Below, piece after piece: positions 40,152-64,000 of a stretch of 64,000 nucleotides of DNA. The notes beneath the pieces were generated by a model, which did not search any database, had not been told where the DNA came from, and was given only the letters and a program-made list of their open reading frames with translations. The stretch is taken from contig JAFGDY010000053.1 in the NCBI GenBank assembly GCA_016931895.1, positions 1-64,000 on the forward strand. The letters are read 5' to 3'. The translations under genes and the position numbers were made by a program. Origin of the DNA: Anaerolineae bacterium. GTDB taxonomy: Bacteria > Chloroflexota > Anaerolineae > 4572-78 > J111. How positions within the stretch are numbered: the stretch's first letter is position 1; each line of letters starts with the position of its first letter.

Positions 40152-40190
40152 CATCATTGTTTTCTTTACCAATTGAACCCAGCACTCTGT

Positions 40191-40304
40191 GCTCATCCAG
40201 AGGGGCGGAGGGACCGGCCCTATGAAGCCCCGGCAACCTGATTGGAATTTATCCCAATTTTCGGTGCCAATTCCGGCAGAATTCAACTTCTGGAAGATGA
40301 GAGC
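40191..40304 (+). promoter_or_regulatory. SAM-I (S-box) riboswitch aptamer
   Basis: The S-box core is clear: GGCGGAGGGACCGGCCC then TATGAAGCCCCGGCAACC (kink-turn and joining regions) and GGTGCCAATTCCGGCAG. P1 is formed by GCTCATC (40191-40197) with GATGAG (40296-40301). A small alternative hairpin AGCAC/GTGCT (40181-40193) overlaps the 5' arm of P1. S-adenosylmethionine binding stabilises P1 and favours the terminator just downstream, shutting off the methionine-synthesis gene metB. Confidence 0.95.
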
Positions 40305-49653: not shown

Positions 49654-52600
49654 ATGGAATCACTAAAACAACTTTGTACCCCGCGTGAAAGCGCCTTTGA
49701 CACTCAGCGCCGAGATACAGTGCTGGATCTGACCGATCTGATCGGCGATCGGATCAAACCTGAAGAGTTCTTCAACGAAAACTACATTACCGAAGGTATG
49801 AAAACCCTATTAGAACACGGTTTCAAACGTCTGGAAGGTAAAACAAGTCAGGGTATCTTTAAACTCAGGCAGGCGATGGGGGGTGGTAAAACTCACAACT
49901 TGTTGGTCTTGGGTTTGTTGGCCAAGCACCCTGAGTTCCGCGAGCAGGTAATGGGCGAATTCTACACCCCTGACCCTGACCTAGGGCCAATCCGTGTCGT
50001 TGCCTTCTCTGGCCGCGAGTCCGACGCACCGTTTGGTCTTTGGGGCGCTATTGCGGAACAGATGGACAAAAAGGATCAGTTCAAAGACCTTTACTCACCC
50101 TTACAAGCCCCCGGCCAAAAAGCGTGGGAGAAGTTGTTCGCCAATGAAACCGTCCTGATTTTGCTCGACGAGTTGCCTCCCTATTTCCAGAGTGCTCGTT
50201 CCAAGGCGATTGGTAATTCTGACTTGGCCGAAGTAACCGCAACAGCGCTTTCTAACCTATTGGTTGCGATTGGTCGCGAAGCTTGCGACCGGGTATGCCT
50301 GGTCCTAACCGACCTGACTGGCTCTTATGAAACTGGCAGCCAGCAAATTTCAACAGTGCTGGCCGACCTGGAGAAAGAAACTCATCGCACGGCTATGAGC
50401 CTGGAGCCGGTTCGGATCAACTCGGACGAACTGTACCATATTCTGCGTAAACGTATTTTTGAAACCCTCCCCACTGAAAGCGAAATCAGTGAGGTGGCGC
50501 AGGGCTACGCCAAAGCCGTTCGTGATGCCAGGCAAATGGACATCACCAATGAGTCGCCGGAGCAGTTTGCTGCCCGCATCCAGGTGTCTTATCCTTTCCA
50601 TCCCGCTATTCGCGACTTGTACGCCCGTTTCCGCGAGAATCTCGGCTTTCAGCAGACACGCGGGCTAATCCGGTTGATGCGAATTGTCGTTTCCCGATTG
50701 TGGGAAACTGGGGCAGCCAATCAACGCTATCTGATTGCCGCCCACGATCTGGATTTTAATTACCAGGAAACGATGACCGAAATTGATCAAATCAACAATA
50801 CACTGGGCAATGCTGTTGCTCACGATATTGCTTCCGGTGGCAATGCAGTGGCAGAGGTAATGGATGCCCAATTGGGCGGTACCGACACACAAGACGCCTG
50901 TCGCTTGCTCTTTATGGCTTCGCTGGCAAATGTGCCTAACGCCGTTTTGGGATTATCCATCTCTGAACTCATTGCCTTTTTAGCCGAACCAGACCGTGAC
51001 CTTTCCAAACTTAAGAACGACGTTTTGGCCCGGTTGTCCACCGCAGCCTGGTACTTGCACAGTACCCGCGACGGCAAACTGTTTTTTAAGAATACACAGA
51101 ATCTCAACGCCAAACTTGAGTCGCTGGTGAAGGCGTATCAGGCTGAACAGGCGGTGCGGGAATTGCGTACCCGGCTGGCCGAAATTTTCCAGCCGACCAA
51201 CCGCTGGTGTTACCAGCGCGTACTGGCCTTACCGGCGGTGGATGAAATCGAATTGGAGCAAGACCAGGTCACCCTCATTATCACCGAACCACATCCGGGG
51301 TCTGGCTTGCGACAAGATTTGCAGCGATTTTTTGACCAAGCCACTTACCAAAACCGGCTCGCTTTTTTAACCGGCACGCGAAACACCTATAACGACCTGA
51401 TTGATACTGGCAAACGTTTGAGGGCGATCCAGCAAATCCTGGATGAGTTAGCCGCCGAGCATGTGCCGGACAATGATCCACAGATGACTCAGGCTAAAGA
51501 TCTGGCCGAACGCACTCTGTTGGCCTTTCATTCGGCGGTGCGAGAAACCTTTACCACTTTGTGGTTCCCCATAAAAAACGGCCTAACCAGCGCCGACTTC
51601 AGCATGCAGTTTGAAGGCAACCGCTATAGCGGCGAGGACCAAATTGTTGAACTGCTCAAAGAAAAGGCTAAATTTGAAACTGATGTAACCGGTGAAGTTT
51701 TTCAAAAGAAATGCGAACGCCGCCTGTTTACTACCCAATCATTACCCTGGAGCGAGATAAAACTGCGCGCCGCCACCAATACCCAATGGCAGTGGCATTT
51801 ACCCAGCGCCTTGGATGATTTGAAAACCGATTGTCTACGGCGCGATGTGTGGCGCGAGGAGGGTGGCTTTGTGGACAAGGGGCCCTTCCCGCAACCCAAG
51901 ACCGATCTTACCATCCAAGAGATGGAGCGCGATAATGATACGGGGGAAGCCCAACTTAAGCTGACCCCCCGGAACGGTGATACCATTTACTATGATGTTG
52001 GCAGTGCAGCCACAACCGCTTCGGCCAAAATTGAGGGCGACGAATTAAAAACCGCTGAGTTGCGTGTTTCTTTTCTGGTGGTTGATTCAACCGGCGAACA
52101 CGAAACCGGCCCGGCCAAAAGCTGGCAAAACCGCATTACGCTCAAGTATCGAACCTTTCAAAGTGGCACCGACAAAAAATTGGAGCTGCAAGCTGCGCCA
52201 AGTGCTCCGATTTTCTACACTACCGATGGTTCAGACCCCAAAACGGTCGGGGCGGTATATAATGAGCCTTTCATCATCTCCCGCAGTTCGCAACTGGTTT
52301 TGGCTTATGCCGAACGTGACAATATCGGCTCTCAGGTAGAGCGTATCCCCATCAGTTGGGATCGAGATGAGACGGTTAAAGTTGAACGCGACCGTCCGGC
52401 CACCTGGAAACCAACCCAGCGTTTCAGATTTTCCAGTACGCGCGACACCTACGACTTTATTGAGAAGCTCAAAAAACATCAAGGTATCCCTCTGGGCGTG
52501 TCGGCGATCATCTCCGGTGAAAGCGGCGACCGGGACTGGCTTGAGTTGCAAACCAACTCGGAGAAGTGGGTTGAACCGGCCATTATCGAGGAGTGTTTGG

Positions 52601-52737
52601 CCGCGTTGCGCAAACTGCAAACCACCGGCCAGGTACAACTTGGGGCTGAGGCTATTCATTTTGAGATGGGGCAAGATTTGCTGGAATGGGTGGAGGATGA
52701 TAAAACTACCTTACAACCCGGCGAAGTCCAGCAGTAG
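49654..52737 (+). CDS. DUF499 anti-phage ATPase
   Basis: A 1027-residue P-loop ATPase with Walker A MGGGKTH (about 74-80) and Walker B LILLDELPPYFQ (about 170-180), the arrangement of DUF499 proteins related to the BrxC/PglY ATPases of BREX/Pgl systems. The C-terminal third contains a chitobiase-like beta-sandwich (about 840-900, APIFYTTDGSDPKTVGAVYNEP). It is the first gene of the DUF499-DUF3780-DUF1156-helicase cassette, a combination reported as enriched in bacterial defence islands. It probably works as a motor or assembly factor that couples the modification and helicase parts. Its G+C content matches the next three genes and is higher than that of the gajAB genes downstream. Confidence 0.88.
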   Translation: MESLKQLCTPRESAFDTQRRDTVLDLTDLIGDRIKPEEFFNENYITEGMKTLLEHGFKRLEGKTSQGIFKLRQAMGGGKTHNLLVLGLLAKHPEFREQVMGEFYTPDPDLGPIRVVAFSGRESDAPFGLWGAIAEQMDKKDQFKDLYSPLQAPGQKAWEKLFANETVLILLDELPPYFQSARSKAIGNSDLAEVTATALSNLLVAIGREACDRVCLVLTDLTGSYETGSQQISTVLADLEKETHRTAMSLEPVRINSDELYHILRKRIFETLPTESEISEVAQGYAKAVRDARQMDITNESPEQFAARIQVSYPFHPAIRDLYARFRENLGFQQTRGLIRLMRIVVSRLWETGAANQRYLIAAHDLDFNYQETMTEIDQINNTLGNAVAHDIASGGNAVAEVMDAQLGGTDTQDACRLLFMASLANVPNAVLGLSISELIAFLAEPDRDLSKLKNDVLARLSTAAWYLHSTRDGKLFFKNTQNLNAKLESLVKAYQAEQAVRELRTRLAEIFQPTNRWCYQRVLALPAVDEIELEQDQVTLIITEPHPGSGLRQDLQRFFDQATYQNRLAFLTGTRNTYNDLIDTGKRLRAIQQILDELAAEHVPDNDPQMTQAKDLAERTLLAFHSAVRETFTTLWFPIKNGLTSADFSMQFEGNRYSGEDQIVELLKEKAKFETDVTGEVFQKKCERRLFTTQSLPWSEIKLRAATNTQWQWHLPSALDDLKTDCLRRDVWREEGGFVDKGPFPQPKTDLTIQEMERDNDTGEAQLKLTPRNGDTIYYDVGSAATTASAKIEGDELKTAELRVSFLVVDSTGEHETGPAKSWQNRITLKYRTFQSGTDKKLELQAAPSAPIFYTTDGSDPKTVGAVYNEPFIISRSSQLVLAYAERDNIGSQVERIPISWDRDETVKVERDRPATWKPTQRFRFSSTRDTYDFIEKLKKHQGIPLGVSAIISGESGDRDWLELQTNSEKWVEPAIIEECLAALRKLQTTGQVQLGAEAIHFEMGQDLLEWVEDDKTTLQPGEVQQ

Positions 52738-52828
52738 TCATCTGTCGAACCGGCAAAATCAGTGTATAATATCCGGTATACTTTTTCATCTGTTTTAAGC
52801 AGTCTCACGGTCAAAAAAGTGGTAACTG

Positions 52829-53464
52829 ATGAGCAAACAAACTGAGCGGCTTTTACAAAATACATTTGGCTTTGAACCAGAAAATAGCACGCACCATTTT
52901 CTGGTAAATATTCCGCGCGGCCAACACGATCACGTTGAAATCAGTGAGCATTTCACTTGGGACCCAGTTGAGGGTTCCAGTGAGGTCTCCTATGGCAGCC
53001 GCAGCGATGGTCAAATTCGGGTGCGCCTAGCCCACCTCAAGTGGGAGGCCATTGCCGATGAGTTACGCGCCCAGTTTAACCGCCGTTTGAAAAAGTATGG
53101 CGTTAAATCTGGTAGTTGGAAAATTGGCCCCAATCTGGTACGCCGCGAATTGGGCAAAGAACTGGTGCTGCTGGCTTGGGCCATTGAAGATGCTGACCCC
53201 GGCCTGATCCCGGCGGCCATTGCCAATTGGCGGGGATTAGAGCCAGAGGAACGCTGGTGGTTGTATACCCAAACCGCTGCTGCCACCGGCCACGGCCTGA
53301 ACGACCGGGGCAAAGGTTGGCGCAGAGCTGTGCGCCACGCCTTAACCGAAAATCCGGTTACGGATCATTTTACAACTCAAACCACTCTCCCCGAATTTTA
53401 CCGTCGAGCTGCCGAAACGCCCTTGTTTGCTGCCCTCCGGGAAACTGAACTAAACGAGGAGTAA
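52829..53464 (+). CDS. DUF3780 defence-cassette protein
   Basis: A 211-residue soluble protein matching DUF3780 in size and in its FGFEPENSTHHFLVNIP start and ERWWLYTQTAAATGH segment. No catalytic motif is evident. It is found almost only beside DUF499 and DUF1156 genes, so it is taken as a structural or specificity partner of the methylase. A 91-bp gap precedes it and contains TATAAT at 52765-52770, which may be an internal promoter. Only 2 nt separate it from the methylase gene. Confidence 0.8.
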   Translation: MSKQTERLLQNTFGFEPENSTHHFLVNIPRGQHDHVEISEHFTWDPVEGSSEVSYGSRSDGQIRVRLAHLKWEAIADELRAQFNRRLKKYGVKSGSWKIGPNLVRRELGKELVLLAWAIEDADPGLIPAAIANWRGLEPEERWWLYTQTAAATGHGLNDRGKGWRRAVRHALTENPVTDHFTTQTTLPEFYRRAAETPLFAALRETELNEE

Positions 53465-53466
53465 TT

Positions 53467-56394
53467 GTGACCAGCCAGCCCCAATCTGCCACGCCACCCG
53501 CCGAAACCCCACTGGCGGATGCCCCTTGTTTCATTGAACACCAATTCCCCGTCGCCAAAATTTCGATGGAAAGCTATAAGGAACGTAAGGCTGGTAATGG
53601 ACAAACCTTGACCGGTCTAGGCAAATGGTGGGGCCGCAAGCCGCTAGTATTAGTGCGAGCCGCCTTGTTAGGGTTGTTGCTGCCTACCACTACCGAGCCA
53701 GAAAAAGATCGGGAGATTTTCTTGAAGTTGATGACGATGGATAGTGAGGGCTTGTGGCACCGCAAAACCAAGACTATTCCCGGAAAAAGACTGCTTGAAG
53801 AGTTGTTGGTTTTACCACATTCTGTTCAGAAGCGATTCCTGGACCCAACCGCTCCATCTGACGCCCCTCAGATACGCCGCTTTTCTCGTGCCGAAGCAGA
53901 AGAACGTGAGGAATTGCAACGGCTAGTTTTTGATCGGATGAGCTATGATGAAAAACTGATCTATTGCGACCGGCCCGAACAGGTTGATGGTCCTGCGCCA
54001 GAATCGTGGGACGAGATTAATGCTCATCTAGGAACTCAAGCCAACAATTTGACGGAACTGGTGCAGGAATTGGGTCAACTCCGTTTTGGTCACGTGCCTC
54101 GGGTGGGCGATGCCTTTTGCGGTGGCGGCTCTATTCCTTTTGAAACGGCACGATTGGGGGTGGAAGCTTATGGAGCCGATCTAAACCCGATGGCAGCCTT
54201 GTTAACCTGGGCGGCATTAAATATTGATGGTGGTGGGCAGGAAACTGTAGCAGCAGTTGAGGCCGCCCAACAGCACGTGTATGAGGCCGTTGGCAAACAG
54301 ATAAATTCTTGGGGTATAGAGCACAACAGTTTGGGGTGGCGGGCCGACGTTTTTCTATATTGTGTGGAAGTACGCGATCCCGAGTCTGGTTGGTGGATAC
54401 CTTTAGCCCCCAATTGGGTTATTGCGGCCAGCAAAAATATCATCGCTAAGCTTGTACCCGACAAAAAGAACAGACGGTACGATATTGAAATTGTGGAAGC
54501 TGCCTCTGAAGCGGGAATGGAAACAGCCCGAAGTCGCGGTACAGTAGATAATTCACGGCTCATTCCCCCGGATGGTGGCCCCTCTACCCCTATTGAGGTC
54601 ATCCGGCGCAACCTTCGTTTGTGGGGAAATGACGATTTTGTTCCTCGTCCAGATGATGTGTTTCAGGAGCGGCTCTACTGTATCCGTTGGGTCGAGACGT
54701 ATCTTGATAGCCAAGGACGGAAACGCACCCGACGTCACTACCGTGCTCCAACCACCGATGATTTGCAGCGGGAAGCCAAAGTATTGGAATTGCTTAAAGA
54801 GCGTTTTCATCACTGGCAGGTAAAAGGGTTTATTCCCAGCCGTGCCATTATACCTGGCAGTGAAACTACTCGTTTGCAGAGGGAACGTGGCTGGACCCAC
54901 TGGCACCATCTTTTTACGCCACGTCAGTTGTTACTAGCAGGTTTATTTGCAGAGGAGAATGCCAAACTAACGAACAAAGCGGAACGTGCTGTTTGTTTAC
55001 TTGGTATTAACAGTATCACTGATTGGAGTTCACGACTAACAAGATGGGCACCTAATCCTGGCAAAGAAATGGTAATCCAGACATTTGGCAATCAAGCTCT
55101 AAATACCCTTTTTAACTATGGGTGTCGAGGATTGACATACCTTGAAACGTCGTTTTTTTTACGACTGGTTCCATCGTTTTGCGTGTCCTCACATACAATG
55201 GCTTCAGATGCCCGTGACACTTCAGAGACCTGCACAATTTGGATCACCGATCCACCCTACGCTGATGCGGTAAATTACCATGAATTGTCGGAGTTCTTCC
55301 TGGCATGGTACGATAAGCAACTGTCCCAGCTCTTTCCCGATTGGTATACTGACTCCAAGCGGGCACTGGCGGTGCAGGGTAGTGATGAGAGTTTTCGACG
55401 GGCTATGGTTGATGCTTACACCCGCCTGGTGCAAAACATGCCGGATAACGGCTTGCAAATCGTGATGTTCACCCACCAGGATGCTGCTGTCTGGGCTGAT
55501 CTGACCATGATCTTGTGGGCTGCTGGACTACACGTCACCCAGGCCTGGACTATTGCCACCGAAACCGACTCGGCGCTCAAACAAGGCAATTACGTCCAAG
55601 GTACGGTTCTGCTGGTGTTGCGCAAACGCAAGGAAACCGAGCCGCTCTTCATGGATGAGATCATCCACGATGTTGAGGCCGAAGTGCGCCGCCAGCTTGA
55701 TACTATGACCCGGCTGGAAGATGATAGCGACCCCAACTTTGGCGATGCTGATTACCAACTGGCTGCCTATGCCGCCGCTCTGCGAGTGCTGACCGCCCAA
55801 CCTATCGAAGAGATTAACCCGGAGCGAGAAATTCTGCGTGAGCGTAAGCCCGGCGAAATCAGCCCGGTAGAAAAATTGATCCGCGATGCGGTCAAAATTG
55901 CCGCCGACCACCTGGTGCCCCGGAACTTCAACCCCGACATTTGGCGGTTCCTATCTCCAATGGAACGGTTCTATTTGAAGGGGTTGGAAGTGGAAAGTCA
56001 CGGCGAATATCGTAGTGGTGTTTATCAGGAATTGGCCCGGGGCTTTGGCGCCGCCGAATACACCGAGCTATTGGCCAATACTCGCGCCAATGAAACCCGC
56101 CTCAAAAGCGCCACCGAATTCGGCAAAAAGGGGCTGTCCGGGGCTGGCTTTGATGGTTCGTTGCTGCGCCAATGTCTCTTTGCCGTGCATCAAGTCCGTC
56201 AAACTGAAGAAACACAAACCGGTCTCAACTGGCTCAAAACCGAACTGCCGGATTATTGGAACCAGCGGGAGCGGATCATCCACCTTCTAGATTATTTAGC
56301 GTCGCTGGTCCGCGTTTCCTCTATGGCCCACTGGCGCAAAGACGGTCAAGCAGCGGAACTCTTGGCCGGCACGGTGAGAAATGACCACGTCTAA
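53467..56394 (+). CDS. DUF1156 adenine-specific DNA methyltransferase
   Basis: A 975-residue protein. The N-terminal DUF1156 region contains ISMESYKERKAG and KWWGRKPLVLVRAALLG. SAM-binding motif I is GDAFCGGGSIPFE (about 215-228), and the catalytic motif DPPYADAVNYHE (about 595) is of the N6-adenine DPPY type. The two motifs are separated by a ~370-residue insert. GTG at 53467 is the start, behind GAGGAG. It most likely marks self DNA for the cassette; its target sequence is unknown. Its 3' end overlaps the helicase gene by 14 nt. Confidence 0.88.
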   Translation: MTSQPQSATPPAETPLADAPCFIEHQFPVAKISMESYKERKAGNGQTLTGLGKWWGRKPLVLVRAALLGLLLPTTTEPEKDREIFLKLMTMDSEGLWHRKTKTIPGKRLLEELLVLPHSVQKRFLDPTAPSDAPQIRRFSRAEAEEREELQRLVFDRMSYDEKLIYCDRPEQVDGPAPESWDEINAHLGTQANNLTELVQELGQLRFGHVPRVGDAFCGGGSIPFETARLGVEAYGADLNPMAALLTWAALNIDGGGQETVAAVEAAQQHVYEAVGKQINSWGIEHNSLGWRADVFLYCVEVRDPESGWWIPLAPNWVIAASKNIIAKLVPDKKNRRYDIEIVEAASEAGMETARSRGTVDNSRLIPPDGGPSTPIEVIRRNLRLWGNDDFVPRPDDVFQERLYCIRWVETYLDSQGRKRTRRHYRAPTTDDLQREAKVLELLKERFHHWQVKGFIPSRAIIPGSETTRLQRERGWTHWHHLFTPRQLLLAGLFAEENAKLTNKAERAVCLLGINSITDWSSRLTRWAPNPGKEMVIQTFGNQALNTLFNYGCRGLTYLETSFFLRLVPSFCVSSHTMASDARDTSETCTIWITDPPYADAVNYHELSEFFLAWYDKQLSQLFPDWYTDSKRALAVQGSDESFRRAMVDAYTRLVQNMPDNGLQIVMFTHQDAAVWADLTMILWAAGLHVTQAWTIATETDSALKQGNYVQGTVLLVLRKRKETEPLFMDEIIHDVEAEVRRQLDTMTRLEDDSDPNFGDADYQLAAYAAALRVLTAQPIEEINPEREILRERKPGEISPVEKLIRDAVKIAADHLVPRNFNPDIWRFLSPMERFYLKGLEVESHGEYRSGVYQELARGFGAAEYTELLANTRANETRLKSATEFGKKGLSGAGFDGSLLRQCLFAVHQVRQTEETQTGLNWLKTELPDYWNQRERIIHLLDYLASLVRVSSMAHWRKDGQAAELLAGTVRNDHV

Positions 56395-59125
56395 GGCTTC
56401 AGTCGTCCGTCGTTTCTCCTCCCGTCGCCAGCGACTGGATCACTCCTTTCTGTCCCCTCGCCTCAAAGGTGCCCAACAGTATGATCGTATTGCCGGTTAC
56501 TTCAGTTCCTCTCTATTGGAACTGGTTGGCGAAGAACTAGAAACCGTTACCGGCAAAATTCGGGTTGTTTGCAACTCTGATTTACACCCCCAAGATGTAA
56601 GAACCGCCAAAGCCGCGCAGATGGCTATCCGCCGGGCCTGGACAAGTTCCCGCCCGGAAAATTTGCTTCAAGGTGAAGGCGAAACGCGCATCCGCGAGCG
56701 TTTTAGCCACCTCTATCAACTGTTGAGCAGTGGCAAGTTGGAAGTCAAAGTTTTGCCCGACCAGGTCTTTGGCCTGGTTCACGGCAAAGCCGGGGTCATC
56801 ACCCTGGCCGATGGTTCGCAAACCTGCTTTGTGGGCAGTGCCAATGAGTCGAAATCGGCCTGGCGGCTCAACTATGAGATTGTTTGGGAAGACTCCTCGC
56901 CCGAGGCCGTCGTCTGGGTGCAGGAGGAATTCAACGCGCTGTGGGGCGACTGCCGGGCACGCCCCCTGGCCGAAGGAGTTATTCAAGACCTCAAACGGCT
57001 GGCTCATCGCCGCGTTATCTACCTGGTTGATGATTGGCTGACCGGCGACGGGGCAGAGACCGATCCGGCAGCGGCCATCGTAGAAACGCCGGTTTACCGG
57101 GACGAGGTTGGATTGTGGGAGCATCAAAAATATTTTGTTAAACTGGTGTTTGATGCCCATCAAGGCCCCACCAAACGTGCCCGCTTTGTGCTGGCCGATC
57201 AGGTTGGCTTGGGCAAAACCCTGCAACTGGCTATGTCGGCCCAACTGATCGCCCTCACGGGTACCCGTCCTATTTTAGTGGTGTGTCCCAAAACTCTGCT
57301 ATGGCAATGGCAGGCCGAAATGCGTGATTTGCTGGCTATGCCTTCAGCGGTATGGAATGGACGTTGCTGGGTGGATGAACAAGGTTACAAACATCCGGCC
57401 ATCGGCCCGGAAGGTATCCTCAAATGTCCACGCCGGGTTGGCATCGTCTCCAGCGGTCTGATTAGTCACGGCGCTGAGACGGCTCAAAACTTGCTCCGGC
57501 TCAAATATGATTGCGCCATTCTTGATGAAGCCCATCGTGCCCGTCGCCAAAATCTGGGCCAAAATCGGAGCTACGTATCCGTTGATCCCAACAATCTGCT
57601 CCGATTCATGTATGATCTGGCCGAACGCAGCCGGAGCGTCCTGCTGGCTACAGCCACCCCGGTTCAGCTACGCCCTATTGAGGCGTGGGATTTGCTCGAC
57701 ATCCTCAGTCGAGGTGATGAGTCCGTATTAGGTAATGCGCAAAGCAAATGGCGACGCGGCGGACGAGCCCTTGAGTTAGTAATGGGGCAAGCTGATCTAC
57801 CTACCGACGAAATTGAGCGGTGGGAATGGACACGCAATCCTTTTCCACCCAAAGAGGAACATCGCGATTTTTTCACGTTGCGGAGAAGTTTGGCCGTGCC
57901 GGATAGGCAATCTATCTTGCCCGGCAGTTACCTAACCAAACTCTCTCGTCCGGATCGCAACCGTTTTAATCGTTTGTTTCCGCGCCTGGTTGCAGATCAC
58001 AATCCCATTATCCGCCGCATTGTGCGTCGCACTCGCCAACAACTTGAAGAGACTATTGATCCGGAAACCGGCGAGCCACTGTTGAAACGAATTGAGGTTG
58101 AACTACTGGGTGAAGGTCCAAACGAAGCCATCCCTCTACCGGGCTATCTACGGGAAGCCTATGATCTAGCCGAAGAGTTCTGCCAAAGCCTGGGGCGGGG
58201 TTCTGGTTTGCTAAAAACTCTGTTGCTGCGGCGGGTAGGTAGTTCTATTTATGCGGGTTTGACCACCGCCCAAAAACTACTGGGCGGCGACACCGATTTT
58301 GATAGTGAAGAAGATGACGAAACTGACGATGTGGCTGGGGCAGCTAGTAGCCTGGCAGCACAGCTAAATTCTACCCAGCAGCAACTTTTAGAGAGTTGTG
58401 TTGCCAATCTAAGGCAATATCTGGAACAAGAACAAGACCCCAAATATGCGGTCGTACTTGATTGCCTGCAACGTCGCGGCTGGCTGGAGCGGGGCTGTAT
58501 TATCTTTAGCCAGTATCGTGACTCCATCCAATGGTTGGCCGAACAACTTACCCAGGAATTTCCCGAAGAACCCATTGCCCTTTATTCCGGCCCTACCACC
58601 TCCGGCATTATGCGTAATGGGCAATGGCAGCCTACTGCCCGCGAAACGCTCAAACAAATGGTGCGGCGCGGCGAAATACGACTGATGCTCGGCACCGATG
58701 CGGCCTCGGAGGGACTGAACTTGCAGAGTTTGAGCACGCTCATTAACCTGGACTTGCCCTGGAATCCCACGCGGTTGGAGCAGCGCAAAGGCCGCATCCA
58801 GCGTATTGGGCAAATCAATGATACCGTTTACATTTTCAATATGCGTTATCAGGACTCGGTGGAAGATCGGGTTCACGAATTGCTCTCCAGCCGGTTACAC
58901 GACATCTACCACCTGTTTGGGCAACTGCCAGATGTGTTGGAAGACGCCTGGGTGGCCATAGCTCTCGGCGAAAAAGAACACGCCCAAAAGATTATCGAGG
59001 CTGTGCCGGAAATGCACCCCTTTGAACTGCGCTACACCGATGTTGAAAATGTCGAATGGGAAACCTGCGAGCAGGTATTGGATGCCGGAGAGAAGTGGCG
59101 GGTGTTGAGTGAGGGGTGGGGGTAG
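56381..59125 (+). CDS. PLD-like nuclease fused to SNF2-type helicase
   Basis: A 914-residue protein. The N-terminal ~190 residues are phospholipase-D-like, with a single HKD-type motif (HGKAGVI near 132, SANES near 157), probably dimerising to form one nuclease site. A SNF2-family helicase follows: motif I DQVGLGKT (about 273), motif II DEAH (about 381), motif III TATP, and motifs V-VI TDAASEGLNLQ and QRKGRIQRIGQ in the C-terminal lobe. In this cassette it is the likely effector that translocates along and cuts unmodified DNA. DISARM also pairs PLD and helicase proteins, but its DrmA/DrmB pair is absent here. The gene ends 64 bp before gajA. Confidence 0.88.
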   Translation: MTTSKASVVRRFSSRRQRLDHSFLSPRLKGAQQYDRIAGYFSSSLLELVGEELETVTGKIRVVCNSDLHPQDVRTAKAAQMAIRRAWTSSRPENLLQGEGETRIRERFSHLYQLLSSGKLEVKVLPDQVFGLVHGKAGVITLADGSQTCFVGSANESKSAWRLNYEIVWEDSSPEAVVWVQEEFNALWGDCRARPLAEGVIQDLKRLAHRRVIYLVDDWLTGDGAETDPAAAIVETPVYRDEVGLWEHQKYFVKLVFDAHQGPTKRARFVLADQVGLGKTLQLAMSAQLIALTGTRPILVVCPKTLLWQWQAEMRDLLAMPSAVWNGRCWVDEQGYKHPAIGPEGILKCPRRVGIVSSGLISHGAETAQNLLRLKYDCAILDEAHRARRQNLGQNRSYVSVDPNNLLRFMYDLAERSRSVLLATATPVQLRPIEAWDLLDILSRGDESVLGNAQSKWRRGGRALELVMGQADLPTDEIERWEWTRNPFPPKEEHRDFFTLRRSLAVPDRQSILPGSYLTKLSRPDRNRFNRLFPRLVADHNPIIRRIVRRTRQQLEETIDPETGEPLLKRIEVELLGEGPNEAIPLPGYLREAYDLAEEFCQSLGRGSGLLKTLLLRRVGSSIYAGLTTAQKLLGGDTDFDSEEDDETDDVAGAASSLAAQLNSTQQQLLESCVANLRQYLEQEQDPKYAVVLDCLQRRGWLERGCIIFSQYRDSIQWLAEQLTQEFPEEPIALYSGPTTSGIMRNGQWQPTARETLKQMVRRGEIRLMLGTDAASEGLNLQSLSTLINLDLPWNPTRLEQRKGRIQRIGQINDTVYIFNMRYQDSVEDRVHELLSSRLHDIYHLFGQLPDVLEDAWVAIALGEKEHAQKIIEAVPEMHPFELRYTDVENVEWETCEQVLDAGEKWRVLSEGWG

Positions 59126-59189: not shown

Positions 59190-60929
59190 GTGAGACTTAA
59201 ACTCGTAAAAATATCTAATTACCGGAATTTGGATGGGGTTGAAATAACCTTTAGCCCAAAGCTCAACTTTCTAATTGGCGAGAATAATCTGGGAAAATCC
59301 AATTTCCTTAATTTATTGAATACGCTTTTTACCAAACGTGGATTTAGCTATGATGATTTTTCTGATCCAGATGAGGCAATAGAAATTGAATTTACACTGA
59401 TTCTTGAAGATGTAGAATTAGGAGTATTCGAGGATCTGTTTAATCCCGAAAATGAAAACCAGATAGATATTCTCGCAGTTCAAGAAACGCCGGAGGGATC
59501 TTTGGAGTTCTGGCATCAAGAAACCAGTACCAAGATTTCAGTAACCAGTGTAAGAGCCATCAACTATATTCACTATGACTCGTTGAGAAACCCATCTTCG
59601 GAGTTAAATTTTGATCGGAATCGAGGTGTTGGAAAGTTCCTTAATTTTCTCATCCAGAGGAGTCTTGAGGATGAAGAAGAAGCAGATTTAGATTTCGTTG
59701 ACAAAGATAGATTAAACGGTCTCATCAGTTCGGTGAACGACGTCCTACAAAAATTGAAGTCTTTTAGAGATTTCTCAATAAACGCCACTTTAGAAGAGGA
59801 AGCGAATAATCTTTTATCAAGACTCATTCTATTAACCGATGGTGAAGGAAGAGAATTAAACCAATCCGGTTATGGAGTTCAATTCTTGTCAACAGTTTCA
59901 CTCGCAATACTGGGAAGATTACTAACTCTGAGCGATGTTCGCTGGAGGAACGTGATTTTCGAAAATGAAGAAACTGGAGAGAACTATATTTCTCTATTGC
60001 TTGGTCTTGACGAACCTGAAATACACCAGCATCCGTATATGCAAAGATCTTTGATAAAGTATCTGAGTCAGATTATTTCCAACAATGAGGCTGATTTCCT
60101 TAAGGTCATTAAACATGTTTTTGATGTGGACGGATTCGTCGGCCAGTGTATCGTTGTATCGCATTCCCCAAACGTATTACTGAATGATTTCACAGAAATA
60201 GTAAGATTTTATAAATGTAACAATCGCATTTCAGTTAAGAGTGGAACGAATATCGTTCTTGATGAGCAAAAAAGGGCCCATCTTCTAAAAAATTTTCCCT
60301 TTGTTAAGGAGGCATTTTTTTCTCGCTGCGTAATAATTGTTGAAGGCGATAGTGAAATTGCGGCCTTGCCTTTATTTGCAGGAAAAATGGATATTTCTGA
60401 CTTGGACGATCTTGGCATTAGTATTATTCAGGCTGGTGGGATCAAGTCAGTATTGCCACTGATGAAACTATTAGAAAACTTTGGGATTAATAGTGTGGGA
60501 GTAATTGATAGTGATGATGCTACCGAAATTCCTGCAAACACGTTCGATATTTTTGTAACAACTGAGCGTGATTTTGAGGCTGAGCTTGTCACCACTCTTT
60601 TGGACAATAATAAAGAGACCCTTTTGATAAAAATCTTGGAAGATTATGATACTTTGGGCCAGAACCGTTTTCTAAAATCAAAAATTTTGAATGAGTGCAA
60701 ACAAAAATATAGCATTACCCCCTCTAATTTCTCGACCGGCCAAACATTAGCTAACATTTCTCTGACAGACACCAACAACCGTAAAGTATGGTATTTAACC
60801 TGGTTTATTATCAACAAAGGGATACTTTTAGGGAGAACTGTTGGTGAACTTCTAGGTAAAGACGATATACCAATGATTTATCAAAATGCGATTAAGAAAG
60901 CAATTGAGCTAACCCAAAATAACTCCTGA
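59190..60929 (+). CDS. gajA: Gabija GajA, OLD-family ATP-gated endonuclease
   Basis: A 579-residue protein. The N-terminal ABC-type ATPase has Walker A GENNLGKSN (about 31-39), a Walker B region LGLDEPEIHQHP and VVSHSP. The C-terminal TOPRIM domain begins with VIIVEGDSEIAALPLF (Glu near 385) and GVIDSDDA. This is the OLD/GajA layout; in Gabija, GajA is a sequence-specific DNA nickase held off by nucleotides and released when they are depleted during infection. The start is GTG at 59190. The stop overlaps the gajB ATG (TGATG). The gene is markedly more A+T-rich than the preceding cassette, suggesting a separate origin. Confidence 0.88.
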   Translation: MRLKLVKISNYRNLDGVEITFSPKLNFLIGENNLGKSNFLNLLNTLFTKRGFSYDDFSDPDEAIEIEFTLILEDVELGVFEDLFNPENENQIDILAVQETPEGSLEFWHQETSTKISVTSVRAINYIHYDSLRNPSSELNFDRNRGVGKFLNFLIQRSLEDEEEADLDFVDKDRLNGLISSVNDVLQKLKSFRDFSINATLEEEANNLLSRLILLTDGEGRELNQSGYGVQFLSTVSLAILGRLLTLSDVRWRNVIFENEETGENYISLLLGLDEPEIHQHPYMQRSLIKYLSQIISNNEADFLKVIKHVFDVDGFVGQCIVVSHSPNVLLNDFTEIVRFYKCNNRISVKSGTNIVLDEQKRAHLLKNFPFVKEAFFSRCVIIVEGDSEIAALPLFAGKMDISDLDDLGISIIQAGGIKSVLPLMKLLENFGINSVGVIDSDDATEIPANTFDIFVTTERDFEAELVTTLLDNNKETLLIKILEDYDTLGQNRFLKSKILNECKQKYSITPSNFSTGQTLANISLTDTNNRKVWYLTWFIINKGILLGRTVGELLGKDDIPMIYQNAIKKAIELTQNNS

Positions 60930-62725
60930 TGAATGAAACGGATATTCAAGAAAAATTTCAGAAGATACATAGCGACGATATACAACAGTTAGAGGTGATC
61001 TTATCGTCGGAAGGGAGGATTCTGGTAGAAGCACCAGCAGGCTATGGCAAAACCAAGACGATGATTAGCAAAATTGCTAATCTCATGGCTACAAACCAGA
61101 TTCCAAATCCTAAAAAACTACTGGCCCTGACCTTTAGTGTCAATGCAGCTTATAAAATCAAGAAGGATGTAGCTGAACAGATCCCTGAATTGCTACAAAC
61201 AGATTTTGGTCCTCCATTTCGTGTCAATGAGAAGGTGTTCGTGTCTAATTATCATGGTTTTTGTCGGCATGTCTTAAAACGATATGGATACTTAATAGCA
61301 GATAATTTAGCCAATATCAATATACTCAAATCGATTGACGATAGCAAGGCTCAGGATTTGATGGCGTTTGGGGTTGGTTTAAGTCTCGATGATGCAAAAT
61401 TTTTTAGTGACGTAAATGACGCCATAAGAGAGTTAAATACCAATTACTTAAGACAGAATTTTAGAGAGTATTGCCATCGGGTTGCATCTCAACTTCTTCC
61501 ACACGACCTCATACCTTTTAATGCTATTTTGATGCTCACCATTCTTCTTTTCAAAGATTATCCGCGAATTTTGAACTTTTATCAAAAATATTTTCCAGTG
61601 ATAATTATTGATGAATTTCAAGATACTAATATCTTGAGTTATCAATTGATAGAAACATTGGTTGCTTCAAATACTCAGTTAATCTTGATGGGAGATTCTC
61701 TGCAAAGAATCTATGGTTTTATCGGTGCAATTCCTAATTTGTTATCCCGCGCAAAAGAATTTTTCTCAATGAAGGAGATAGTGCTTACTAAAAATCATAG
61801 GTTTGAGAACAATCCACAGATGCTAAATCTTGATGCCAATCTTCGAGAGAATGCCAAAAATCCTGCTAATCCAAACATAAGCGAAAGTGCCTGTGTGGAA
61901 TTCGATCTGCTAGAAGATCAAATTGAAGAAGCAAACTGGCTTACAAGGAAAATACAAACAATCCAAAGTGATAATCCAAATTCAAAAATTGCAGTACTGG
62001 TAAGACAACGAAGCCAAAATACTAAAAGAATTCTGGAAGTGTTCAAGATTCATAGCCTCCAATTTTTCTATGCCCTTTTTAGTGATGAGGATCAAGATTA
62101 TGTGGATTTCCATAGAATTTGTTTGCGTATTCTTATTGATATTCTAAAGACATATAAAGGGGTCTCTAGCAGATGTTTAAGGTCGCTACTTACTGAAGTT
62201 AAAGCCCACTATTCTGATGATAGCTCACCGCTAATCGAAGCATTACTGAGTCTATTGGAGATTTTTTGTCAGCGCATTGTAGAGGACTTTGCATTTTTGG
62301 ATGTAGAAGATCGTATCACGCTTATGAAAGATATATTAGAAAGTAATGCTCTAAAACAGAATCTAGAATTTGTTAAGACCAATTTAGTAATATCTACAAT
62401 ACACGGAGCTAAGGGATTGGAATGGGATTATGTATATCTCCCTGATATGGAACAATACTCTCTTCCCAACTATCCTGGCCTATGTGGAAAGTGTAATTGC
62501 CAACAAGCTTGTAACTTAAAGGTAACTCAATCATTAGAGGCCGATTTTCTTCAAGAGCTATGTGTTTTTTATGTAGGGGTCACAAGGGCCCGAATGAATG
62601 TTTCTTGTTCTGCCAGCAGAAAGCGAATTAGGTATGATGGTACAGTGCGATCTTGTAATGTTAGTTGCTTCCTAAATTTAAAAGGTATCGAATTAGTGTC
62701 ATCGGATGATCTTGAGATGAAATAG
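60929..62725 (+). CDS. gajB: Gabija GajB, UvrD-like helicase
   Basis: A 598-residue SF1A helicase. Motif I is APAGYGKTKT (about 35-44), motif II IIIDEFQDTN (about 226-235), motif III MGDSLQRIYGF, motif V STIHGAKGLEWD (about 488-499) and motif VI YVGVTRARM. A compact cysteine cluster, CGKCNCQQAC (about 518-528), lies between motifs V and VI and looks metal-binding; with the later Cys residues it may hold a zinc or an Fe-S centre. With GajA it forms the Gabija complex, in which GajB senses DNA ends or cleavage products. It is coupled to gajA and followed by its own terminator. Confidence 0.88.
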   Translation: MNETDIQEKFQKIHSDDIQQLEVILSSEGRILVEAPAGYGKTKTMISKIANLMATNQIPNPKKLLALTFSVNAAYKIKKDVAEQIPELLQTDFGPPFRVNEKVFVSNYHGFCRHVLKRYGYLIADNLANINILKSIDDSKAQDLMAFGVGLSLDDAKFFSDVNDAIRELNTNYLRQNFREYCHRVASQLLPHDLIPFNAILMLTILLFKDYPRILNFYQKYFPVIIIDEFQDTNILSYQLIETLVASNTQLILMGDSLQRIYGFIGAIPNLLSRAKEFFSMKEIVLTKNHRFENNPQMLNLDANLRENAKNPANPNISESACVEFDLLEDQIEEANWLTRKIQTIQSDNPNSKIAVLVRQRSQNTKRILEVFKIHSLQFFYALFSDEDQDYVDFHRICLRILIDILKTYKGVSSRCLRSLLTEVKAHYSDDSSPLIEALLSLLEIFCQRIVEDFAFLDVEDRITLMKDILESNALKQNLEFVKTNLVISTIHGAKGLEWDYVYLPDMEQYSLPNYPGLCGKCNCQQACNLKVTQSLEADFLQELCVFYVGVTRARMNVSCSASRKRIRYDGTVRSCNVSCFLNLKGIELVSSDDLEMK

Positions 62726-62983: not shown

Positions 62984-63211
62984 GTGTCCGAACAGACCAC
63001 AAACCGGGATCCGTTAGCGGATCTCACCTCAAAGCTTATCTCAGTGACGAGGGCTTCCGAGTTGAGTGGTCTCACCCCCAGTTACATCCGGCGTTTGCTG
63101 CGGAATAGAGTTATCGCAGGCAAAAAAATTGGCCGGGACTGGTTTACCACGGAAGAGACCATACGGGAGTATTTGCAGCAAGAACGCCGTCCAGGCCCCA
63201 AACCCAGATAA
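62984..63211 (+). CDS. Second excisionase-like helix-turn-helix protein
   Basis: A 75-residue basic protein: HTH ISVTRASELSGLTPSYIRRL, wing RVIAGKKIGRDWFTTEETI, then a helix ending GPKPR. The start is GTG at 62984 with no strong Shine-Dalgarno, so the start is less certain. It has the same length, layout and GPK-type tail as the protein at 49048-49260 and is probably its paralogue. It sits after the gajB terminator and before a promoter with a palindromic operator at 63251-63270, which it may control. Confidence 0.8.
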   Translation: MSEQTTNRDPLADLTSKLISVTRASELSGLTPSYIRRLLRNRVIAGKKIGRDWFTTEETIREYLQQERRPGPKPR

Positions 63212-63242: not shown

Positions 63243-63271
63243 TTGACAATTAGTACCGCTAAAGGTACTAT
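63243..63271 (+). promoter_or_regulatory. Promoter with a palindromic operator between its boxes
   Basis: TTGACA (63243-63248), 17 nt, TACTAT (63266-63271). A 7-bp inverted repeat, TAGTACC (63251-63257) and GGTACTA (63264-63270), fills the spacer and overlaps the -10 box. A repressor bound here would block RNA polymerase. Confidence 0.7.
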
Positions 63272-63328
63272 TATAAGTGTAATCAATTTGATTGCGCTTT
63301 TTTGATTCTTCAATTTCTTCTCCCCGAA

Positions 63329-63416
63329 ATGAACCTGACAATTTCATGAAGGTGATCGCGATTGCCGCTATATCTCTGCCAGGAGGTGCCCTATGAGTGG
63401 TGGAACCGGCGGCTAG
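63329..63416 (+). other. Chain of three tiny overlapping ORFs (possible leader)
   Basis: Downstream of the promoter three short frames are linked by ATGA overlaps: MNLTIS (63329-63349), MKVIAIAAISLPGGAL (63346-63396) and MSGGTGG (63393-63416). The last has a perfect AGGAGG ribosome binding site 6 nt before its ATG. They end just before the terminator at 63427-63466. They may be a leader/attenuator or coincidental; translation is not proven. Confidence 0.35.
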
Positions 63417-63426
63417 CAAGGTTATT

Positions 63427-63466
63427 CGGGCGATGGATGACCGCGGACTCATCGCCCGTTTCTTTT
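63427..63466 (+). terminator. Terminator of the short right-hand transcript
   Basis: CGGGCGATG (63427-63435) and its perfect complement CATCGCCCG (63450-63458) form a 9-bp stem followed by TTTCTTTT on the plus strand. With the promoter at 63243-63271 it defines a transcript of about 190 nt. The minus-strand side lacks a T tract. Confidence 0.75.
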
Positions 63467-64000
63467 CACCAATACCATTTGATGGTATACACTTCAAATC
63501 GTCGGACTTTCTCGGTCTCCCAGGTGACCATTTGTCGCCCATCGGGAAAAGAGACGAAATGTTCGGGGCCAAGCGTTTTGGTGCGATGGTGGCTTCGTTC
63601 GACTAGGGTCGCTTTTTGGCACCGTCGATTCTTGGGGAAAATAATCCTCATTCTCAATCGTTTAGTACGATGGCGAATTTCACTCTGGAATGATTCCTCA
63701 ACTTTGGTAAAGCCATTTTTGGCTGTACGTTCAATGTAAAAATCGGCCTCATTGCCGCTGTTTTTGGTCTCGCGTAGGGAGATCAAAATGTTCCAGCGGT
63801 CACCCTCTTGGTAACGATCCACTTCAACACCGGGCGAGCACTGGTAGTCGGCAAATATCTCTCCATCACCCCAGGCATAATCTTCAAAGGCCAGGATATG
63901 GTTTTGGATGAACTTGACCTTCTGTCGTTTCTTGAAAAGGGCAGTCTTGCCTTTGGTATCCAACAATTCAAGCGTGGAGTCATAGTCAAGGATTTCATAG
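63466..64000 (-). CDS. Unknown protein, 3' part (gene runs off the window)
   Basis: An open minus-strand frame from the right edge to the stop at 63466, at least 177 residues. The visible part is rich in Lys/Arg/Glu and aromatic residues (YAWGDGEIFADYQCSP, RWNILISLRETKNSG, IKWYW end) and has no membrane helix. I do not recognise a family. The frame remains open upstream of any local start, so the N terminus is outside the window. It is convergent with the short plus-strand transcript at 63243-63466. It belongs to the mobile element and could be another cargo gene. Confidence 0.6.
   Translation of the reverse strand, partial: YEILDYDSTLELLDTKGKTALFKKRQKVKFIQNHILAFEDYAWGDGEIFADYQCSPGVEVDRYQEGDRWNILISLRETKNSGNEADFYIERTAKNGFTKVEESFQSEIRHRTKRLRMRIIFPKNRRCQKATLVERSHHRTKTLGPEHFVSFPDGRQMVTWETEKVRRFEVYTIKWYW

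Follow-up and report, generated by a model that had tools for sequence, protein, structure and literature searches.

Amino-acid leader peptides and attenuators carry a short open reading frame (ORF) with a run of codons for a single amino acid ahead of a terminator. The 7-codon mRNA of mccA, the microcin C precursor gene of the Escherichia coli mcc operon, undergoes many rounds of translation in vitro before the ribosome departs, and its seven-residue length is conserved, with a variable sequence, partly because short ORFs are reiteratively translated (PMC6495379). In cyanobacteria, PatS and other RGSGR peptides are very short Gly/Ser peptides with a dedicated protein partner; PatS requires its RGSGR motif and acts on the regulator HetR (PMC7761841).

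Here, we analyzed a 64,000-nucleotide stretch of DNA from an Anaerolineae bacterium (the window), near the right end of which a compact unit encodes the micropeptide MSGGTGG. In architecture, its closest analog is mccA, with which it shares a seven-codon ORF, a strong Shine–Dalgarno (SD) motif, and downstream termination. Unlike the mccA product, however, the micropeptide is rich in glycine, is conserved in sequence, and across its family has Gly, Thr, or Ser, not Asn, at the C-terminus; there is no adjoining MccB, and the partner is instead a convergently encoded protein predicted to be beta-sandwich-like. PatS is a longer peptide, and the micropeptides have neither its RG(S/T)GR motif nor HetR. 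The first-pass annotation had regarded the locus as an operator–promoter–mini-ORF–terminator unit of no known feature type, and this assessment holds: the unit has no relevant Rfam family at the gathering score and no counterpart in the protein libraries searched, and we found no description of it in the literature on Chloroflexi glycine-rich micropeptides, ultra-short ORFs, and leaderless pheromones.

The unit begins with a sigma-70-type promoter on the forward strand (positions 63243–63271), in which a −35 element (TTGACA, 63243–63248) and a −10 element (TACTAT, 63266–63271) are separated by 17 nt and match the consensus at 10 of 12 positions. A generic promoter scan returned 20 such sites in 4 kb versus 10.5 in shuffled sequences; promoter-like sites are thus common, and the match alone is weak. 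The spacer holds an operator-like palindrome (TAGTACC-GCTAAA-GGTACTA, 63251–63270), and its pattern (TAGTACC-N3–9-GGTACTA) occurs nowhere else in the 6.06-Mb genome. Upstream lies a gene for a 75-aa excisionase-type DNA-binding protein (62984–63211, forward strand), the presumed regulator, which matches Pfam HTH_17 slightly under the curated cut-off (E = 1.4e-5) and TIGR01764 (E = 3.5e-4). Downstream, ATGA overlaps join three tiny ORFs at 63329–63349 (MNLTIS), 63346–63396 (MKVIAIAAISLPGGAL), and 63393–63416 (MSGGTGG), the last of which is preceded by AGGAGG (63381–63386) 6 nt upstream of its ATG. An intrinsic terminator with a 9-bp stem and a CCGCGG loop follows (63427–63466), composed of the hairpin CGGGCGATG/CATCGCCCG (63427–63458) and TTTCTTTT up to 63466. 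Its T-run meets the stop codon (63466–63468) of a 225-codon convergent gene, here called CONV, whose 3′ part occupies 63466–64000 on the reverse strand. CONV begins on the side of the window's right edge and runs out of the window, and it is complete in another locus (L006:467–1144). The promoter, palindrome, joined ORFs, SD motif, and terminator are thus all present as originally read.

The predicted transcript is 183 nt long and is not more folded than shuffled sequences (z = −0.19). An additional hairpin with a T-run (63275–63304, forward strand) lies just 3′ of the promoter and straddles the predicted start site, and equivalents of it occur in three related units (L029, L021, and L016). 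The full stem is worth −12.3 kcal/mol, compared to −6.9 kcal/mol when read from the predicted start site. Because it is weaker from that site and recurs elsewhere, this hairpin may serve to block transcripts running on from the HTH gene without hindering the micro-ORF promoter; alternatively, it may act as an attenuator.

When 61 relatives were searched with the unit at the DNA level, only one match lay beyond its own genome, in G009, and it covers only the ORF end and the terminator, which is kept at 78 per cent identity. There, the order is a divergent XRE-type gene, a leader, GAGAGGAGG, the micro-ORF MAGGGSGG, the same terminator, and CONV. A search for related loci with the 75-aa HTH protein as query gave no match. 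CONV, which had been overlooked in the first-pass annotation, is the conserved partner: as a query it was found in 13 of 396 genomes of the class (about 3 per cent), and an alignment search of GTDB contigs recovered 31 loci. Nearly all of these are titled Chloroflexota, among them Pelolinea submarina MO-CFX1, whose genome is complete and whose locus, L054, carries MGGGSGT; one is titled Ca. Shapirobacteria and is possibly misbinned. Searches of viral contigs and PLSDB plasmids, at the sensitivity employed, detected no CONV.

Opposite the CONV stop codon, we read 37 micro-ORFs in Anaerolineae and one other class of Chloroflexota, most of them of six to eight codons. Besides MSGGTGG and MAGGGSGG, they include MRGGGTGG, MSGGGGT, MSGGSGT, MGGGSGT, MAGGGNGG, MVYYGGGGDSG, MFSGGTGT, MSGGGQGG, MALSDGGGGT, MKGVGTGT, MSGVGSGT, MGGGSG, MTSGGGGTL, MDGGGGT, MALEHGGGG, and MSGGIGT. 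Among the 36 tabulated by length, 30 have six to eight codons (15 with seven, 11 with eight, and 4 with six). All start with ATG or GTG, and an SD-like motif precedes each of the 35 that have upstream sequence, at a distance of 5–9 nt in almost all. By reading, an SD-led micro-ORF is found at nearly all CONV loci, including those in which a gene is inserted between it and CONV (L037, L038, L050, and L053); L048 is the sole named CONV locus in which none was recognized. One locus, L042, carries two copies some 1.9 kb apart, and in the other class of the phylum an HTH_17-like gene accompanies an MDGGGSGT unit (L088). A pattern scan of the 396 class genomes gave matches away from CONV at about the background of the reversed pattern, and the match MGGGIGT in G211 was rejected as it sits within a longer gene.

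Seven-codon ORFs each have little information content. Both they and promoter-like matches are common, which would suit the view that promoter-, SD-, and terminator-like sequences coincided by chance in an intergenic gap. The flank counts refute this view, to which we assign a negligible probability. Under a strict definition (an SD-like motif and 6–14 codons, at least half of them for Gly), a micro-ORF is present in 22 of 31 CONV-adjacent flanks, compared with 0 of the 686 control windows drawn from other parts of those loci and with 1 of 6,200 shuffled flanks, and conservation extends over more than 30 loci. Most of the nine flanks missed by this definition have peptides poorer in Gly or belong to loci with an inserted gene. 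The family also bears the mark of purifying selection in the coding frame only, with fewer non-synonymous than synonymous changes (pN/pS of 0.49–0.55 in frame versus 1.27–1.55 in the other frames; over the last five codons, 0.49 versus 1.55 and 1.30). For MGGGSGT, four loci use four different DNA sequences, and the same holds for MSGGSGT; the differences lie in Gly and Ser codons, with both Ser codon families in use. GGG makes up 3 per cent of the Gly codons, a rarity that fits with translation but might also stem from composition. The flank counts, pN/pS values, varied codons, lengths, and SD motifs give good support, at the level of comparative sequence data, for translation of the micro-ORF and for selection on the sequence of its peptide. 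The two upstream ORFs (63329–63396, forward strand) are without a ribosome site, have no counterpart in the sister locus L008 of G009, and look incidental. Conservation of the unit applies to the third ORF, its SD motif, the promoter, and usually the terminator, but not to the first two ORFs; the palindrome is often present with a varying sequence.

These findings sit poorly with the initial suggestions of a regulatory RNA, a leader or attenuator, or a decoy, since the last ORF evolves as a coding sequence. As an attenuator, the unit would respond through its Gly codons to charged tRNA-Gly or to ribosome stalling; this would set whether transcription passes the hairpin and hence whether RNA antisense to CONV is made. 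Runs of three to five Gly codons immediately 5′ of the terminator, a transcript aimed into the 3′ end of CONV, and the covarying terminator stem would all fit. Yet unlike attenuators, the unit has no downstream operon: CONV is convergent in the window and most loci, and a same-strand gene lies downstream only in a few insert-bearing loci, so that a leader has nothing to lead. Moreover, several units are without a terminator (L032, L039, L052, and L054), and the Ser and Thr positions, which a Gly sensor would not need, are also kept. We consider this explanation improbable.

The regulator belongs to the unit, as had been supposed of the adjacent HTH gene, but its identity changes. By cluster assignment, 16 named loci have an HTH homolog upstream of their micro-ORF, and a close homolog is present in 8 class genomes, at the CONV locus in 6 of them. 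In most loci the upstream regulator is of the HTH_17 type, whereas about ten loci have a divergently encoded XRE protein in its place. At least six switches of regulator type are required on the CONV tree, yet the peptide persists through them: L027 has an XRE gene where its sister, the window, has HTH_17, although peptide type and terminator are common to the two. The link between the peptide and CONV is therefore tighter than the link of either to the regulator. Near-consensus promoters stand before most related micro-ORFs, many matching at 10–12 of 12 positions. Many HTH_17-type promoters hold locus-specific palindromes between their −35 and −10 elements (TAGTACC/GGTACTA, TATTCG/CGAATA, GTAGCG/CGCTAC, and TAGGCGATATCGCCTA), and differing palindromes occupy the same promoter position in L028, L029, L030, L046, L055, L016, and L021; in several units (L040, L044, and L051) the palindrome is weak or absent. 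From these positions, we infer that the HTH protein represses the micro-ORF promoter.

The terminator follows the micro-ORF in the window and most units. Across 12 Anaerolineae units its stem shows covariation, whereas the CCGCGG loop hardly varies, and two-sided changes affect 7 of the 16 predicted pairs in the alignment, all within this stem. For the unit as a whole, RNA structure is not significant in the window and weak in G009. Palindromes of at least 8 nt are found in the leaders of 21 units, against an expectation of 8.7 from shuffles (14 in the largest shuffle), with ACGGCCGT recurring. Seven units (L035, L037, L040, L041, L045, L050, and L056) combine a (GA)CGGCCGT leader palindrome 25–37 nt 5′ of the start with a CCGCGG or CCTAGG terminator loop. 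The leader palindromes and CCGCGG loops may serve as binding sites or in RNA contacts. If they were instead the active parts of a regulatory or dual-function RNA, the ORF would serve mainly RNA stability, and the excess of palindromes over shuffles and the CCGCGG loop in most HTH_17-type units agree with that. However, most XRE-type units are without the leader palindrome and the CCGCGG loop while the peptide is present in all, and what is conserved is amino acids rather than bases. A dual-function RNA is therefore hard to credit.

The CONV protein has no match in Pfam, NCBIfam, PADLOC, or PDB sequences. Its core is predicted with very high confidence (pLDDT 95) to be an all-beta domain, and all aligned members end at their C-terminus in W-x-W. 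Among solved structures, the closest in fold are the N-terminal beta domain of M1 aminopeptidases and Ost1/ribophorin I (TM 0.5–0.63 over the query, rmsd over 5, and 7–14 per cent identity), a similarity of fold in the model and not family membership. Assignment of CONV as an M1 aminopeptidase fails, as there is no zinc catalytic domain and no Pfam or PDB-sequence match, the likeness being at the level of fold alone. Peptide similarity tracks CONV similarity (Mantel r = 0.37, P = 2e-4), a correlation that shows shared descent of the two and not contact. We regard CONV as an unannotated protein family and the likely partner of the micropeptide.

The neighbors of CONV vary among loci and include integrases, resolvases, ParA, RadC, TraG/TrwB, ArdC, DUF2958, and restriction–modification genes, as well as nSTAND1, EAD7-AbiJ, HEPN, Piwi, and ubiquitin-like E1–E2 genes. 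In the window, the cassette is preceded by Gabija and a DUF499/DUF3780/DUF1156/PLD-helicase set. The Gabija pair is complete (59190–62725; GajA of 579 aa and GajB of 598 aa, with a one-base overlap) and lies directly 5′ of the HTH gene, and the genes at 49654–59125 (DUF499, DUF3780, a DUF1156 methyltransferase, and a PLD-type SNF2 helicase) match PADLOC candidate models. Farther away are a SAM riboswitch (40190–40303; RF00162, 89.5 bits) and a hybrid PKS/NRPS cluster (3283–31181) with synthases of 4,178, 2,207, and 1,559 aa, an FtsX/MacB permease, and an ABC ATPase bearing cyclic-nucleotide-binding domains. Elsewhere, the gene inserted between the micro-ORF and CONV encodes an EAD7 domain fused to an AbiJ N-terminal-like domain (L037:4662–5336) or a different EAD-type protein (L050). 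The cassette is accessory, carried as a module on mobile and defense islands of Chloroflexota, and it is absent from the same-genus genome G001. In one HTH_17 locus (L097 of G297), the HTH gene is apparently disrupted and a remnant TTGACA promoter is left, with neither micro-ORF nor CONV; here, the module seems to have decayed as a whole.

Two CONV loci adjoin prokaryotic ubiquitin-like operons: one with a ThiF-family E1, E2 proteins, and small beta-grasp-like proteins (L054:256–3451) and the other with an E2 and a ThiF E1 that has an apparent JAB-like N-terminus (L053:556–2408). These E1-like genes, the seven-codon mccA ORF behind its strong SD, and the dominance of lengths seven and eight raise the option of a RiPP-like precursor, in which the peptide would be formylated, modified, and act as a signal or inhibitor, with CONV as a modifying, binding, or immunity partner. 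The precursor of about seven residues behind a strong SD is indeed found, but C-terminal Asn occurs in 0 of 37 peptides, and ThiF, the family of the adjacent MccB of microcin C loci, occurs in 2 of 31 loci, both times within the E1–E2 operons. The survey of neighbors revealed no recurrent modifying enzyme or exporter, and the ThiF neighbor in L054 was rejected as a microcin-type enzyme because it belongs to the operon with E2 and beta-grasp-like proteins. A modified peptide is a rather unlikely alternative, although it ranks ahead of attenuation of antisense read-through, which in turn ranks ahead of a dual-function RNA.

The explanation that we favor, and hold to be somewhat probable, is a regulated micropeptide gene, repressed by the HTH protein, whose translated Gly-rich peptide is the product and works with CONV. 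The HTH protein would bind the promoter palindrome and keep the gene off until a cue of some kind derepresses the promoter and a short mRNA is made. A ribosome would then initiate at the strong SD, read six to eight codons, and release the peptide, and the terminator would close the mRNA at the stop codon of CONV. Reiterative translation, as for mccA, would favor exactly this ORF length. The strict linkage and shared ancestry suggest that the peptide may act with the CONV protein as a ligand, inhibitor, or substrate. More tentatively, the unprocessed, directly translated peptide of six to eight residues could be a specific ligand or a covalent tail or substrate of CONV, forming an island-borne and perhaps anti-phage switch; in the clade of the window, several peptides have a C-terminal Gly-Gly like that of ubiquitin-type tails, and E1–E2 genes adjoin two CONV loci.

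Surveys of small proteins often start at about ten codons (one bacterial survey was restricted to 10–50 aa [PMC5521070]), so that genes of six to eight codons are not sought and stay invisible to annotation. What makes so tiny a gene detectable in Chloroflexota is its phylum-wide conservation, together with a promoter, ribosome site, and terminator, a regulator that is swapped, and a partner that stays fixed. The family thereby raises the question of the minimum size of a functional gene, and it suggests a principle for finding others, namely a search for tiny SD-led ORFs at fixed spots adjoining conserved genes.
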